Source of the DNA: Epidermidibacterium keratini
Lineage (GTDB): Bacteria > Actinomycetota > Actinomycetes > Mycobacteriales > Antricoccaceae
Length of the DNA: 64,000 nt
Assembly: GCF_009834025.1 (NCBI RefSeq)
Contig: NZ_CP047156.1
Span: 1-64,000, forward strand
Direction: 5' to 3'
This document shows positions 1 to 27,439 of this stretch, piece by piece (position 1 is the first letter of the stretch; every line of letters begins with the position of its first letter). Position numbers and translations under genes: made by a program. The notes under the pieces are model-generated. The model was given only the letters and a program-made list of their open reading frames with translations, did not search any database and was not told the origin of the DNA.

Positions 1-1
1 T

Positions 2-1537
2 GACAGCGTCGACAACGCACGCTCATTCCTGTCGCGCACCGTGCCACTGGACTTCCCACCGTTCGGCGAGCTGCTCGGCTTGATCGGGCAGACGCTCGCC
101 ATCGTGACGTGTGCGACTGTCCTCAGCGTGGTGCTGTCGCTGCCGATTGCCCTGCTGGCAGCCAGCAACACGACTCCCGGTCGCAGCTGGCGGGCTGGCA
201 GCCGCGTCGTCATTGTGCTCGCCCGCGCGGTCCCCGACCTGATCCTGGCGATCATCTTCTTCCGGCTCTTCGGACTGGGCGCCATAGCGGGCATCCTGGC
301 GCTAGGTCTGCACTCCATCGGCATGGTCGGCAAGCTGTACGCCGATGCGATCGAACAGATTGACGAAGGACCGCCCAACGCGATCCGAGCGGCCGGCGGC
401 GGACGCCTCCAGCAGATCACCAGCGGCGTCATCCCTCAGGTGATGCCGCAGCTGATCGCTACCGCCCTGCACCGTTTCGACATCAACCTGCGCACCTCGG
501 TGGTGCTGGGCTACGTCGGCGTCACCGGCATCGGCATGGCCATCGCAGATGCCTTGCGCACCATGAACTATCAGCGCGGAATGGCGCTCGCGCTCGTCGT
601 ACTCATCCTCTGCATCCTCATCGAGCTGCTGTCCGGCGCGCTCCGCTCGGCACTGCTCGGCGCCGGACGATCCAAAGACCGCGGACGGCTCACCCGCTGG
701 GCCGATCGAGTGTCGCAGGGCTGGGTGAGCGGCTCCGTACCGCCCGCCGAGCCGACGCGCCTCTCACCGCCGTGGACCGGTCAACGAGTCAGCCGCACGG
801 CGTTCTACATCCTCACCGCGATGGTGATCCTGTGGGCGATCTGGGGAGCCGACGTCGACTTTGCGGTATTCGTGCAAGGCCTCGCGAACCTGCCCCAGAC
901 CATCGGGCTCTTCCTCCCACCGAGCACGGGCGGCATCATGCCCACCCTGCTTGCCGAACTCGTCGTTACGGTGCAGATCGCCCTGGCCGCAACGTTCTTG
1001 GGTCTGATCTTGGCCATTCCGATCGGCGTACTCGCGGCCCGGAACGTCATGCCCAACCCGAGCGTGCACAAAACGGCACGGTTGCTCATCGTGCTGATCC
1101 GCGGGATTCCCGAGCTGATCATCGCGATCATCTTCGTGGTCATTACCGGACTCGGCGGTGTGGCCGGTGCCCTGGCACTCGCCATCGGCTCGATCGGCCT
1201 GCTCGGCAAGCTCGTCGCCGACTCCCTTGAGGAGACCGACGTGCGCGTGCAAGAGGCAATTCGGGCAACTGGCGCAACGCGCCCTCAGGTGTTCTGGTCT
1301 GCGACCGTCCGCCAGGCGGCACCCTCGTTCGTCGCGCACATCCTCTACCAGCTCGACGTCAACATCCGCTCCGCGACGCTGCTCGGCATCGTGGGCGCCG
1401 GCGGCATCGGCTTCTACCTGCAAAACGCCGCTCGCGTCTCGCAGTTCGGGGTGGTCACCACGATCATCCTCATCGTGCTGGCCGTCGTGCTCATCGTCGA
1501 AGCGATCGCCATCTGGGCCCGCCGCACCGTCAAGTAG
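2..1537 (+). CDS. phnE: Phosphonate ABC transporter permease, double-length PhnE (5' end outside window)
   Basis: Inner-membrane permease of the PhnCDE importer that brings phosphonates into the cell for the downstream C-P lyase. The protein contains two homologous PhnE units, roughly residues 1-215 and 260-498 counted from the GTG at 41. Each has about five hydrophobic segments and its own cytoplasmic coupling loop (GSIGLLGKL, then EAIRATGA; the first copy reads HSIGMVGKL and NAIRAAGG). The frame is open back to base 2 with PhnE-like residues (RSFLSRTVPLDF), so I regard the GTG at 41 as internal and the gene as 5'-truncated by the window edge. phnC and phnD are expected just upstream. Tandem PhnE fusions are known in Actinobacteria. 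The link to phnG is broken by an inserted cassette at 1574-2680. Confidence 0.92.
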   Translation, partial: DSVDNARSFLSRTVPLDFPPFGELLGLIGQTLAIVTCATVLSVVLSLPIALLAASNTTPGRSWRAGSRVVIVLARAVPDLILAIIFFRLFGLGAIAGILALGLHSIGMVGKLYADAIEQIDEGPPNAIRAAGGGRLQQITSGVIPQVMPQLIATALHRFDINLRTSVVLGYVGVTGIGMAIADALRTMNYQRGMALALVVLILCILIELLSGALRSALLGAGRSKDRGRLTRWADRVSQGWVSGSVPPAEPTRLSPPWTGQRVSRTAFYILTAMVILWAIWGADVDFAVFVQGLANLPQTIGLFLPPSTGGIMPTLLAELVVTVQIALAATFLGLILAIPIGVLAARNVMPNPSVHKTARLLIVLIRGIPELIIAIIFVVITGLGGVAGALALAIGSIGLLGKLVADSLEETDVRVQEAIRATGATRPQVFWSATVRQAAPSFVAHILYQLDVNIRSATLLGIVGAGGIGFYLQNAARVSQFGVVTTIILIVLAVVLIVEAIAIWARRTVK

Positions 1538-1573
1538 CCCGGTTCTCCTGCCGGCCCGCCCGAGCTCGCGTGA

Positions 1574-1644
1574 AAAATCGCACCCGTAACGGGATGCCTC
1601 GTCGATATTCGCCGAGGTACCCCGATCTGGGTGCGATTTTGCAC
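1574..1644. repeat. Palindromic repeat, left copy, flanking the DUF559 gene
   Basis: About 71 bp that is itself a long inverted repeat. The outer arms are AAAATCGCACCC (1574-1585) and GGGTGCGATTTT (1629-1640). Inside are near-complementary arms around CCTCGTCGATATTCGCCGAGG. A second copy lies at 2611-2680, about 90% identical by eye, with a handful of substitutions and one extra C here. The two copies enclose one gene. It could fold as a hairpin and terminate the phnE transcript, or mark the boundary of an inserted cassette. Confidence 0.85.
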
Positions 1645-1660
1645 GCCGCTGAGCCCCGCG

Positions 1661-1692
1661 AACTTGTCCACAGAGTCGGCAACTTGTCCACA
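1661..1692 (+). repeat. Tandem AACTTGTCCACA repeats containing TTGTCCACA DnaA-box-like 9-mers
   Basis: AACTTGTCCACA occurs twice in the same orientation (1661-1672 and 1681-1692), a 20 bp period. The embedded TTGTCCACA matches the actinobacterial DnaA box. The pair ends 52 bp before the DUF559 gene start. The repetition is seen directly. DnaA binding is inference. Confidence 0.6.
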
Positions 1693-1744
1693 TTGAGGGC
1701 TACAGACCAGGCGCCCCCTGGTCGCCGCAGGCCACCATCGCCGA

Positions 1745-2605
1745 ATGGACGTCCTGGATTTGCTACAGCGCGAGCACCACGGCGTCGCTCGCGCGGGCAC
1801 GATCATCGCGATCGCCGGGCGGACCGAGATGCTGAGGCTCGTCCGGGTGGGACGGTTGGATCGCGTCTGCCACGGCTGGTATGCCTCGCCTGGGGCTTTT
1901 CCACCGGCACGGTTGGCGGTTGCGGCCGGCGGCGCGCTGAGCTGCGTGAGCGCGCTCGCCACGGAGGGGATCTGGGTGCCCGACACTAGGGAGATCCACA
2001 TCCGCGTCAACGGACACACCCGACGCAATCCGCGAACGAGCTGTCTCAAGGAATGTGCGAATCCTGGGCGAGTACTCCCGACGCCCCGGTCGGTCGATCC
2101 TCTCGGCACGGCGCTCGCGACGGCGGCAGGCTGCGTGACCGACGAAGAGCTCGTCGCGATCTGCGACTCGCTGTTGTATCGCAAGAAATGCGATCGCGAC
2201 GATCTTGAGCACTGGTTGAAAGACTGCCGGCGATCGGTTCGCGAGCTCATCGACTGGACCGACGGGAGGGCCGAGTCGGGAACCGAGTCCCTCGCTCGAT
2301 TCCGGTTGGCCCGTCGCGGGTTCAAGGTCCGCCCACAGGTGGGGATCAGCGGCGTCGGGCATGTTGATCTGCTCATCGGCCGCCGTCTGGTCATCGAGGT
2401 TGACTCGGTCAGCTACCACACCGACGTTCCGGCGTACAACGAAGATCGCCGGCGCGACCTCATTCTCGCCGGGCTCGGATTCATCGTCGTCCGGCTCACC
2501 TATGAGCATGTGATGTACGGCTGGGACACCGTGCTGCCGAACATCCTGGCTATCACGCAACGGCGCGACCACCTCCGGGACCCACGAGGTTTCGCACGGC
2601 GTTAA
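1745..2605 (+). CDS. AbiEi-like/DUF559 PD-(D/E)xK nuclease-fold protein
   Basis: A 286-residue protein of the large actinobacterial family with an N-terminal AbiEi-antitoxin-like winged-helix part (about residues 1-60, ending in the LxRVCHGWYA-type stretch) and a C-terminal DUF559/Vsr-like nuclease fold. Candidate catalytic residues are E181 (GTESL), D208 (HVDLL) and E218-x-D220 (VIEVD), followed by the RR-DL-LAGLGF helix typical of DUF559. The substrate is unknown. Some relatives are discussed as type IV toxin-antitoxin or mobile nuclease genes, but function here is inference. The gene has no part in phosphonate metabolism, yet lies between phnE and phnG, framed by two copies of a 70 bp palindrome. 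That looks like an insertion into a pre-existing operon. Confidence 0.75.
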   Translation: MDVLDLLQREHHGVARAGTIIAIAGRTEMLRLVRVGRLDRVCHGWYASPGAFPPARLAVAAGGALSCVSALATEGIWVPDTREIHIRVNGHTRRNPRTSCLKECANPGRVLPTPRSVDPLGTALATAAGCVTDEELVAICDSLLYRKKCDRDDLEHWLKDCRRSVRELIDWTDGRAESGTESLARFRLARRGFKVRPQVGISGVGHVDLLIGRRLVIEVDSVSYHTDVPAYNEDRRRDLILAGLGFIVVRLTYEHVMYGWDTVLPNILAITQRRDHLRDPRGFARR

Positions 2606-2610
2606 CGCGC

Positions 2611-2680
2611 AAAATCGCACCCGTCGCGGGGTATCTCGTCGATATTCGCCGAGGTACCCGATCTGGGTGCGATTTTGCAC
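2611..2680. repeat. Palindromic repeat, right copy, flanking the DUF559 gene
   Basis: Second copy of the palindrome seen at 1574-1644. The outer arms AAAATCGCACCC (2611-2622) and GGGTGCGATTTT (2665-2676) are identical to the left copy. The interior differs at a few bases of the left half. It begins five bases after the DUF559 stop codon. Confidence 0.85.
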
Positions 2681-2733
2681 GGCCGAGTGTGGCAAGCGAC
2701 GTCAGCGAGTTGTCACGAACAAGCGGCGGGCGA

Positions 2734-2755
2734 GTTTAGGTGGAGTTCACCTTCT
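2734..2755 (+). promoter_or_regulatory. Possible two-unit PHO box upstream of phnG
   Basis: GTTTAGG (2734) and GTTCACC (2745) are spaced exactly 11 bp apart, the period of actinobacterial PhoP boxes (GTTCACC plus 4 nt). The second unit is perfect. The first matches only 4 of 7 positions, so this is a weak call, though the location ahead of phosphonate genes is right. Confidence 0.3.
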
Positions 2756-2806
2756 CGCACCCCGCGCCTGCCTCGACGCTCACGCCACACCGGCACGCTA
2801 AGCGAT

Positions 2807-3253
2807 GTGACTGACCACGACTTCACCCGAGAAGAGATCGCCGGGCTGCTTGCGCAGGCCGATCGCGATGCCGTCGTCGCACTCGCCGACGAGATCATCG
2901 CCGCCCTGGACGATCCAGCGCAGTGTCGCATCACTCGCGCTCCGCAGGTCGGCGCCATCCAGGTGCAGGTGCGCGAGCCGATCGCTGCCCACCGGTTCGT
3001 GATCGCTGACGCCCTCGCCACCAACGTCGAGGTCCGGTTGGGCGATCAGGGCGGCTGGGCGATCCGGCTCGGTGACGACGCGACCGCCGTGACCGCCCAG
3101 GCCATCTGCGACGCCGAGTACGCCGCCTCCGGCGAGTACGCCGGCCAGATCGCCACGTTGTGCCGCTCGACTGCCCAACAGATCGCACACGACCGCGCGG
3201 CACACTGGCGCGATCTGCAGCCCACCATCGTCGAGTTTGAGGAGGTGCACTGA
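2807..3253 (+). CDS. phnG: C-P lyase core subunit PhnG
   Basis: PhnG is a subunit of the PhnGHIJ core. With PhnI it takes part in forming alpha-D-ribose 1-methylphosphonate 5-triphosphate from ATP and the phosphonate. I place the start at GTG 2807 (VTDHDFTREE), giving 148 residues, the usual PhnG length. The frame continues upstream to 2675, but that part reads as non-coding arginine/serine-rich sequence. The family pattern is visible in QVREPIAAHRF and the C-terminal IAHDRAAHWRDLQPTIVEF. The stop overlaps the phnH start by one base (TGATG), and a GAGGAGG ribosome site for phnH lies in its last codons. Confidence 0.9.
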   Translation: MTDHDFTREEIAGLLAQADRDAVVALADEIIAALDDPAQCRITRAPQVGAIQVQVREPIAAHRFVIADALATNVEVRLGDQGGWAIRLGDDATAVTAQAICDAEYAASGEYAGQIATLCRSTAQQIAHDRAAHWRDLQPTIVEFEEVH

Positions 3254-3828
3254 TGCGCGCATTGACCGCATCCGAGGCGCAGCAGACTTTTCGCGCCTGC
3301 CTGGACGCCTTTGCCCACCCTGGTCGCCCGATCCCCATCGACCGCTCACCCCTGCCAGCTACCGTTCCTGCTGCCTACCTGCCGCTGCTGGCGCTCACCG
3401 ACTTGATGAGCCCCATCGCAGCCCTCGACGACAACGCACTCATCTCCGAGCTGTCGATCGTCACCGGCGCGCCGATCGGCGCATTGGCCGAAGCTCGCTG
3501 GGTCGCCTCGACGTCCACGCCCGATTCCGCCGCGCTTCGCCGGCTCAACCCCGGTACGGCGCTCTACCCCGAGCGCGGTGCGGTCCTGTGCCAGCAGGTT
3601 GATGGGTTCGAGCCCACCGACCGGGTGCTCGAACTCGACGGGCCGGGGATCGCCGGCACGGCAAGGATCTCGCTCGACCTGCTCGACGACGCGGTCCTGG
3701 AAGCACGCGCCGCACTCGTCGACTATCCCTGCGGCATCGACCTGCTGCTGGTATCCGACGAGGCGATCCTCGGCATCCCTCGCACCACCCACATCAGTGT
3801 CCGGGCTCCTCTGGAGGCGACCGCATGA
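3253..3828 (+). CDS. phnH: C-P lyase core subunit PhnH
   Basis: PhnH, 191 residues (E. coli about 194), is a PLP-transferase-fold-derived structural subunit of the C-P lyase core and lacks a known active site of its own. The N-terminus (EAQQTFRACLDAFAHPGRP) is diagnostic: this F-R-x-L-D-A-x-x-x-P-G-R pattern opens PhnH proteins. GAGGAGG 7-13 bases before the ATG gives a strong start. The last codons overlap phnI (ATGA), indicating coupled translation and matched stoichiometry with phnG and phnI. Confidence 0.93.
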   Translation: MRALTASEAQQTFRACLDAFAHPGRPIPIDRSPLPATVPAAYLPLLALTDLMSPIAALDDNALISELSIVTGAPIGALAEARWVASTSTPDSAALRRLNPGTALYPERGAVLCQQVDGFEPTDRVLELDGPGIAGTARISLDLLDDAVLEARAALVDYPCGIDLLLVSDEAILGIPRTTHISVRAPLEATA

Positions 3829-5003
3829 CTTACGCCGGAACAAACAAGGGAGGCACGGCGGCGATCGTCGCTGCCGAACGCCTCGTCACGCGCAACCGGG
3901 TCGCGGCCTTCCGCGACGGGACGAGCATCCCTCCCGAGCAGGTCATCGCCACCTTCCGAGCGAGCCTCGACCGCATCATGGGCGAAGCAGGACTATGGGA
4001 TGAAACCCTTGCCGCATATGCGTTCTTGCAAGCTGGTGGCGACTATGCCGAGGCCGTGCACCTGTTGCGCGCCCACCGCTCGACGCTCCCCCGGCTCGCG
4101 GTCAGCGAACCTGTCGATGCCCGATCCATGCAGATCCTGCGCCGCATCGTCCCGGCGCACCGCAGCCCCGACGGTCCGCAGCTGCTTGGCGCGACGGTCG
4201 ACTACACCGCACGCATCCTGCGCCGTCCCGGTGAGGGTGACCCGCTGCCGATCGTCGACGACATCTCTGCGCAACAGCCGCCGGAGTACGCCGACGAGCC
4301 GTTCCAGCGCTACAGCGACTTCCTGCGCGAGCGAGACTTGCTTGCCCCGCACGAGCCACACGATGACCCTGAGCCGATCGACCTTGCCCTTAACCCCCCG
4401 GCGCTGCCGGCTCCGCGATCGGCGCTCCTATCGGCAATGTCGCTTGCTGAGACCGGTGGCCTTGTCGGCATGTGGTACCGCTCGATCCTCGGGCCCGACG
4501 GGTACGCCGACGAGAGCGTGACCCTCGGCGAGGTGCGCCACGGAACGGTCGCGCTCGACGTCACCCACCCGCACACGGGCAAGCCGGTCCGCATCGGGTC
4601 GTTGCGGGTCAGCGAGACGGAGTGCTTCTCGCACCTCGACGAGCGCGGAGAGGACCCATCGCGGTTCCAGGCCGGCTACGGCATGGCGCTTGGCCACAAC
4701 GAGCGCAAGACGATCGCGATGGCCAACATGGATCTCGCCGCGACGCGGTACGCCGGCACCGACGAGGGTGACTCACTGCAGCAGCTGATCATGCTGACGA
4801 CGGATGGCCTGGCATCTAACGGGTTCCTCGAGCACCTCAAGCTTCCGCACTATGTGACCTTCCGGTCCATGCTCGACCGTGCCCTCGCCGCCCGGGCCGA
4901 GCAGCAGCCCGCACAGCAGGCTCCGCAGCAACCCGAACTGACCGATCAGGCAGGCGACCTGGACGACGTACGTGACATCCAGAAAGTAGGCCAGCCCGCA
5001 TGA
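3825..5003 (+). CDS. phnI: C-P lyase core subunit PhnI (nucleosidase)
   Basis: PhnI, 392 residues, is the subunit that with PhnG, PhnH and PhnL displaces adenine from ATP by the phosphonate. Family signatures are the N-terminal GGTAAIVAAERLV and the central GYGMALGHNERKTIAMANMDLA block. A glutamine/proline-rich tail (about residues 355-392) extends beyond the E. coli length of about 354 and is probably disordered. It overlaps phnH by four bases and phnJK by four bases (ATGA). Confidence 0.95.
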   Translation: MTYAGTNKGGTAAIVAAERLVTRNRVAAFRDGTSIPPEQVIATFRASLDRIMGEAGLWDETLAAYAFLQAGGDYAEAVHLLRAHRSTLPRLAVSEPVDARSMQILRRIVPAHRSPDGPQLLGATVDYTARILRRPGEGDPLPIVDDISAQQPPEYADEPFQRYSDFLRERDLLAPHEPHDDPEPIDLALNPPALPAPRSALLSAMSLAETGGLVGMWYRSILGPDGYADESVTLGEVRHGTVALDVTHPHTGKPVRIGSLRVSETECFSHLDERGEDPSRFQAGYGMALGHNERKTIAMANMDLAATRYAGTDEGDSLQQLIMLTTDGLASNGFLEHLKLPHYVTFRSMLDRALAARAEQQPAQQAPQQPELTDQAGDLDDVRDIQKVGQPA

Positions 5004-27380: not shown

Positions 27381-27439
27381 ACCTGCGGTGGAACCTCTAA
27401 CGCTATTGAGCCAATAGCGCTAGAGGTTCCACCGCAGGT
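27381..27439. terminator. Near-perfect 28-bp inverted repeat between convergent genes
   Basis: Arms 27381-27408 and 27412-27439 are complementary with one A/C mismatch around a 3-nt centre. It lies six bases past the wall-protein stop and five bases from the stop of the molybdopterin hydroxylase gene. It has no T-run but is probably a bidirectional terminator-like hairpin or a dispersed palindromic element. Confidence 0.65.

Follow-up and report, generated by a model that had tools for sequence, protein, structure and literature searches.

A Palindrome-Framed Nuclease Gene in a phn Operon Probably Represents a Class of Two-Part Mobile DNA in Actinobacteria

A nuclease gene located between phnE and phnG of Epidermidibacterium keratini is framed by two copies of one palindrome, and the resulting unit (positions 1570–2680) probably belongs to a large class of two-part mobile elements of Actinobacteria that apparently has not been described before. 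Positions refer to the window, i.e., the whole stretch of 64,000 nucleotides that was analyzed. On the best reading, the unit is a system that works like REPIN/RAYT with an unrelated nuclease, which would cleave the palindromes and thereby set them in motion. There is a somewhat better than even case for a broader statement, namely that AbiEi-domain Vsr/EDxHD nucleases mobilize a huge class of Actinobacteria palindromes, comprising hundreds of independent pairs with their own recognition sequences, and that they do so without a transposase or integrase. In the open-access literature, no paper was found that connects DUF559 genes with palindromes or with inverted repeats, although an earlier description may exist.

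Results and Discussion

Organization of the Locus

The unit lies in a row of three co-directional genes on the forward strand. Upstream is phnE (positions 41–1537), which encodes a fused phosphonate permease and shares 47% identity with its counterpart in an Actinopolymorpha operon; downstream is phnG (approximately 2807–3253). The nuclease gene itself (1745–2605) encodes a protein of 286 residues, identified by Pfam, profile, and fold searches as an AbiEi-type winged helix joined to a DUF559/Vsr/EDxHD-like nuclease. The palindrome preceding it, designated type 1, is 75 bp long (1570–1644) and has the arms GTGCAAAATCGCACCC and GGGTGCGATTTTGCAC, with one mismatch in this copy, a variable interior, and the center CGTCGATATTCGCCG. 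The second copy (2607–2680) is 74 bp long, stands in direct orientation, and is 92% identical to the first. The complete palindrome–gene–palindrome unit thus spans 1,111 bp, its ends being set by analogy with the comparison of orthologous sites in genus g9 described below. The nuclease gene is alone between the two palindromes, with no transposase or second gene, and no Rfam match was obtained in positions 1–5000 of the window.

The original prediction had placed a DUF559 gene between phnE and phnG, framed by matching palindromes, and both the sequence and Pfam agree with it. Its palindrome length of about 70 bp is close to the measured 74–75 bp, and the distance of about 100 bp between the upstream palindrome and the start codon was measured as 100 bp. 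The downstream palindrome, however, begins 1–2 bp past the stop codon rather than 5 bp. In the whole 64-kb window there are only two symmetric palindromes of comparable strength, and both are from families that frame DUF559 genes.

Architecture of the Encoded Protein

Pfam assigned MTES_1575 REase (E-value of 8.6e-9), DUF559 (1.7e-6), and AbiEi_4 (1e-5) to the 286-residue protein. The AbiEi_4 winged helix is N-terminal and the DUF559/MTES_1575 nuclease domain is C-terminal; together, the Pfam and PDB profiles cover its full length with AbiEi winged helix and Vsr/EDxHD nuclease, in agreement with the fold search. A profile search detected 3r3p_A with an E-value of 9.6e-7, indicating an EDxHD/Vsr-like catalytic domain. 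Among 17 homologs, Glu181, Asp208, and Glu218 are invariant and Asp220 is nearly so, a pattern of conservation that points to an active nuclease.

A structure model based on the 17-sequence alignment had a mean pLDDT of 89.5 and replaced a single-sequence fold with a pLDDT of 33, which was discarded. The C-terminal domain of the model is closest to the catalytic domain of I-Bth0305I (Z-score of 10.4, RMSD of 2.9 over 97 aligned residues), followed by the DUF559 protein 3hrl (Z-score of 10.3) and Vsr (Z-score of 9.2), and the N-terminal part matches the AbiEi antitoxin 6y8q. The inverted repeat bound by AbiEi has two arms of 11 bp separated by 27 bp (PMC3985639), and the target on which I-Bth0305I dimerizes is nearly 60 bp long (PMC3943268). 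By analogy with these two proteins, binding of a dimer to a palindrome of 45–90 bp is plausible.

Solitary Copies of the Type-1 Palindrome

The genome consists of one contig of 4.02 Mb, in which 13 solitary type-1 copies, each exactly 75 bp long, are found in addition to the flanking pair. In all 15 copies (74–75 bp), the terminal 16 bp of either arm hardly vary, the interior is variable, and the center is conserved. Since the copies share both their length and near-invariant outer arms, chance can be ruled out as the origin of the palindrome. The solitary copies are mostly intergenic, typically 5–50 bp past a stop codon; two lie inside predicted frames that are perhaps not real or called too long. 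No target-site duplication was detected beside the 13 solitary copies, the direct repeats being 3.4, compared with 3.6 in swapped pairs.

Covariation within the type-1 family is weak, with outer arms that are conserved as they stand and an interior that changes from copy to copy. Because of this weak covariation, conserved DNA arms are a better reading than RNA structure, which is disfavored as the conserved feature.

Other Members of the Family in the Same Genome

A profile search identified 12 AbiEi-DUF559 genes in this genome. Each of the 12 is flanked on both sides by matching repeats, and the sequence of the pair is different for each gene. In 10 of them the repeats are clear long palindromes. 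L321 has a pair with a weaker hairpin, and the flanks of L313 (G000:C1:482843-483697) are arrays of three GATCCGAGACAAA-like units of 13–15 bp, inverted between the two ends and forming no hairpin. A genome-wide search had been proposed for copies of the palindrome at other DUF559 genes. Type 1 itself flanks only the gene at 1745–2605, but the link between palindrome and gene family is general, because the other 11 genes each have a framing repeat pair with a separate sequence.

Solitary copies are likewise not confined to type 1. The second-closest gene (49% identical) is framed by a 73-bp type-2 palindrome starting with GCCAAAAATGGACGAGAG, of which there are about 10 solitary copies. At least five palindrome types have solitary copies in the genome: type 1, type 2, and at least three further ones detected within the small part of the genome that was read. 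Over the whole analysis, solitary copies were tallied genome-wide for three types. In the window, a solitary 59-bp palindrome at 27381–27439, 6 bp past a stop codon, is 93% identical to the pair framing a DUF559 gene at genome positions 1885540–1886223. Solitary copies of three further DUF559-framing types of this genome were observed at L016:4484-4528, L169:1001-1048, and L014:161-218.

An alignment of type-2 copies (L160–L170) revealed two alternative forms of the inner arms, GGGGTCACG or GGGCACCCC, which combine freely between the left and right halves; read by eye, the four combinations are represented by three, three, three, and two copies. This free combination suggests breaks near the center that were repaired from other copies.

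Pairing of Gene and Palindrome

The sequence of the palindrome follows that of the protein it frames. A palindrome is recognizably common to 73% of framed-gene pairs with at least 75% protein identity, to 9% of pairs with 60–75% identity, and to about 1% or less of those below 60%; the count of 73 of 92 in the gene–palindrome comparison includes some preselected loci and is therefore not a rate. In the related genus g9, the L143-type palindrome is present in each of the four genomes that have a close ortholog of the L143 gene (at least 78% identity), with at least one copy beyond the flanking pair. Among the 16 genomes of this genus lacking the ortholog, two have the palindrome: G191 in about eight places and G150 in one. 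Dispersed copies are thus found mainly in genomes carrying the matching gene.

Distribution in the Order and the Class

Flanking repeats were scored by local alignment of upstream versus downstream flanks. Within the order, 45 of 68 family genes have a repeat pair scoring at least 30, compared with 6 of 246 control window pairs; these genes were chosen regardless of palindromes, two of them are counted twice, and the controls come from the same loci. Across the class, the same score is reached by 13 of 29 family genes and 0 of 109 control genes, and a score of at least 24 by 19 and 2 of them, respectively. By the score used, at least about one third of the family genes outside this genome have no repeat pair.

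Individual loci in these samples differ in their repeats. Some pairs consist of two palindromes that are each perfect but not the same, as in L283, where both are 56 bp long (hairpins) and differ by matched changes in both arms. The flanking pairs of L289 and L290, 90 and 109 bp long, are nearly identical and are therefore probably recent. In families f31 and f32, which have large genomes (L299–L301, L304, L309, and L310), most AbiEi-DUF559 genes have no flanking repeat pair and may have been domesticated or laid out differently.

DUF559/AbiEi-type genes occur in 125 of 148 genomes of the class, with up to 15 or more per genome. They are among the commonest unexplained genes of Actinobacteria and are usually annotated as an endonuclease or an AbiEi antitoxin. 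Carriage of the units by phages or plasmids was set aside: database searches returned one weak phage match and eight plasmid matches below 60% identity. As these matches are few and weak, the units are considered essentially chromosomal.

Occupied, Solo, and Empty Alleles of One Site

The orthologous site of L143 in genus g9 exists in several states. In about 28 genomes the neighboring genes are 0–37 bp apart. The site is occupied in G043, G101, G205, and G176, where it measures about 1,040 bp including the cassette; G164 has a decayed cassette of 557 bp and G191 a bare palindrome only. In G165, the same gap (L209) contains a lone palindrome from another family, namely the type that frames the L123 cassette. 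In those occupied alleles that were measured, 12–18 bp lie outside the palindromes, which matches the length of the empty alleles. The inserted unit therefore runs from palindrome to palindrome.

For the phn operon, an empty site had been sought at the phnE–phnG junction, and a cassette-free junction with a gap of about 56 bp is indeed present in Actinopolymorpha, although this is a distant comparison (41–57% protein identity). In the flanks examined of the nearest phnE relatives within the order, phnG was not found beside phnE. No fresh insertion was seen between near-identical strains, so that the movement of palindromes and cassettes may be old.

Origin and Possible Movement of the Palindromes

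It is very improbable that DUF559 genes are framed incidentally, by palindromes acting as ordinary bidirectional terminators or as RNA-stability hairpins. The hairpins are stable and located past stop codons, as this explanation predicts, but matching repeats at both ends are found in 0 of 109 control genes, the palindrome sequence tracks protein identity, the outer arms are near-invariant with a fixed total length, and no Rfam family matches the palindromes. Regulation provides another, still unlikely, explanation. An AbiEi-like repressor would use the palindromes as autoregulatory operators or as sites of its regulon, the nuclease would serve in defence or as a toxin, and nothing would be mobile. 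AbiEi represses its own promoter through an inverted repeat (PMC3985639), the N-terminus of the protein matches AbiEi, and the upstream palindrome is about 100 bp before the start codon. Yet in most cases a second copy is present past the stop codon, and solitary copies are mostly just past the stop codons of other genes instead of in promoters. Nor would operators account for orthologous sites that are empty, solo, or occupied with boundaries running from palindrome to palindrome.

Homing instead of transposition deserves more attention and is a possible, if doubtful, explanation. The nuclease would cut solitary palindromes that already existed, possibly as sites of use to the host (terminators, for example), and the break would be repaired from the cassette via the palindrome halves, giving the palindrome–gene–palindrome arrangement. 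This explanation, also raised in the original prediction, is consistent with the similarity of the nuclease domain to the homing endonuclease I-Bth0305I, with the solo palindrome and the full cassette as alternative alleles at one site, and with the free assortment of type-2 inner arms between halves, as expected from central breaks repaired off other copies. However, homing cannot make palindromes at new, non-homologous sites, whereas the solitary copies are scattered over intergenic sites unrelated to one another, and the L143 site is free of palindromes in about 28 genomes. In addition, a palindrome family of its own for each nuclease type is not expected of a shared host site.

The preferred reading is that of a two-part mobile system, in which the nuclease gene together with its two framing palindromes would be the autonomous unit and the palindrome alone the non-autonomous one. 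Dimers of the protein most likely contact the conserved outer arms of the matching palindrome through the AbiEi-type winged helix, and the Vsr/EDxHD-type domain most likely nicks or cuts that palindrome as a duplex, a cruciform, or a single-stranded hairpin. Repair of the break would then copy the palindrome or the whole cassette to new, mostly intergenic places just past stop codons; for entry into a site without homology, end joining at breaks is one possibility. Recombination between the two direct palindromes, or decay, may remove the gene and leave a solitary palindrome, like solo LTRs. Several findings count against a mobile system: the low number of palindrome copies per genome (10–15), the lack of a target-site duplication and of a transposase or second gene, the family genes without a repeat pair (notably in f31 and f32), the weak covariation within one family, and the lack of fresh insertions. 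If the reading is true, a role as palindrome-unit enzymes would explain the number and sporadic distribution of DUF559/AbiEi-type genes, and these would form a large natural set of nucleases, each with a known long DNA target, in which nuclease–DNA recognition is directly testable.

Comparison with Known Systems

The nuclease fold (Z-scores of 9–10) and motif are shared with the DUF559/MTES_1575 REase and the Vsr mismatch endonuclease. Known proteins of these groups act on their own in repair or defence or form part of large defence proteins; to our knowledge, none has been described with palindromes. The N-terminal winged-helix fold is that of the AbiEi antitoxin of the type IV toxin–antitoxin system AbiE; the site bound by AbiEi is a long inverted repeat, conserved at its ends. 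Unlike in AbiE, the AbiEi domain is fused to a nuclease, and the palindromes stand on both sides of the gene and are dispersed as well. No AbiEii toxin gene was identified beside the nuclease gene, its neighbors being phnE and phnG.

A homologous catalytic domain and a gene that looks selfish connect the unit with homing endonucleases of the EDxHD family (I-Bth0305I) and with free-standing homing endonuclease genes (PMC3943268). These enzymes dimerize on unusually long sites (PMC3943268), which suits the long palindromes found here. In contrast to them, the gene is located in intergenic DNA between palindromes and not in an intron, an intein, or an interrupted homing site; it also has terminal palindromes of its own, solitary copies at many unrelated sites, and an N-terminal AbiEi-type winged helix. 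The unit differs from a classical insertion sequence or MITE in having neither a transposase gene nor a target-site duplication.

The closest parallel in organization is provided by the REPIN/RAYT (TnpA-REP) systems of Proteobacteria (PMC3116915, PMC3733652, PMC8266576). In both, the genome that carries a palindrome-flanked gene also contains extragenic palindromes at dispersed positions, and each gene has a palindrome type of its own. The palindromes have conserved ends and a variable interior in both cases and are extragenic, often downstream of genes. Yet the enzyme is a winged helix combined with a Vsr/EDxHD nuclease, whereas RAYT is a Y1 (HuH) tyrosine transposase, and the GTAG or CGTC tag is absent beside type-1 and type-2 palindromes. 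The copies also number only about 10–15, and the hosts are Actinobacteria. The unit works like REPIN/RAYT but is not a member of it, having no HuH transposase and no GTAG tag. The REP-like mobile unit envisaged in the original prediction fits well with the framed genes, the dispersed matched solitary copies, and the empty, solo, and occupied alleles; if it is true, REP-like elements exist outside the RAYT world.
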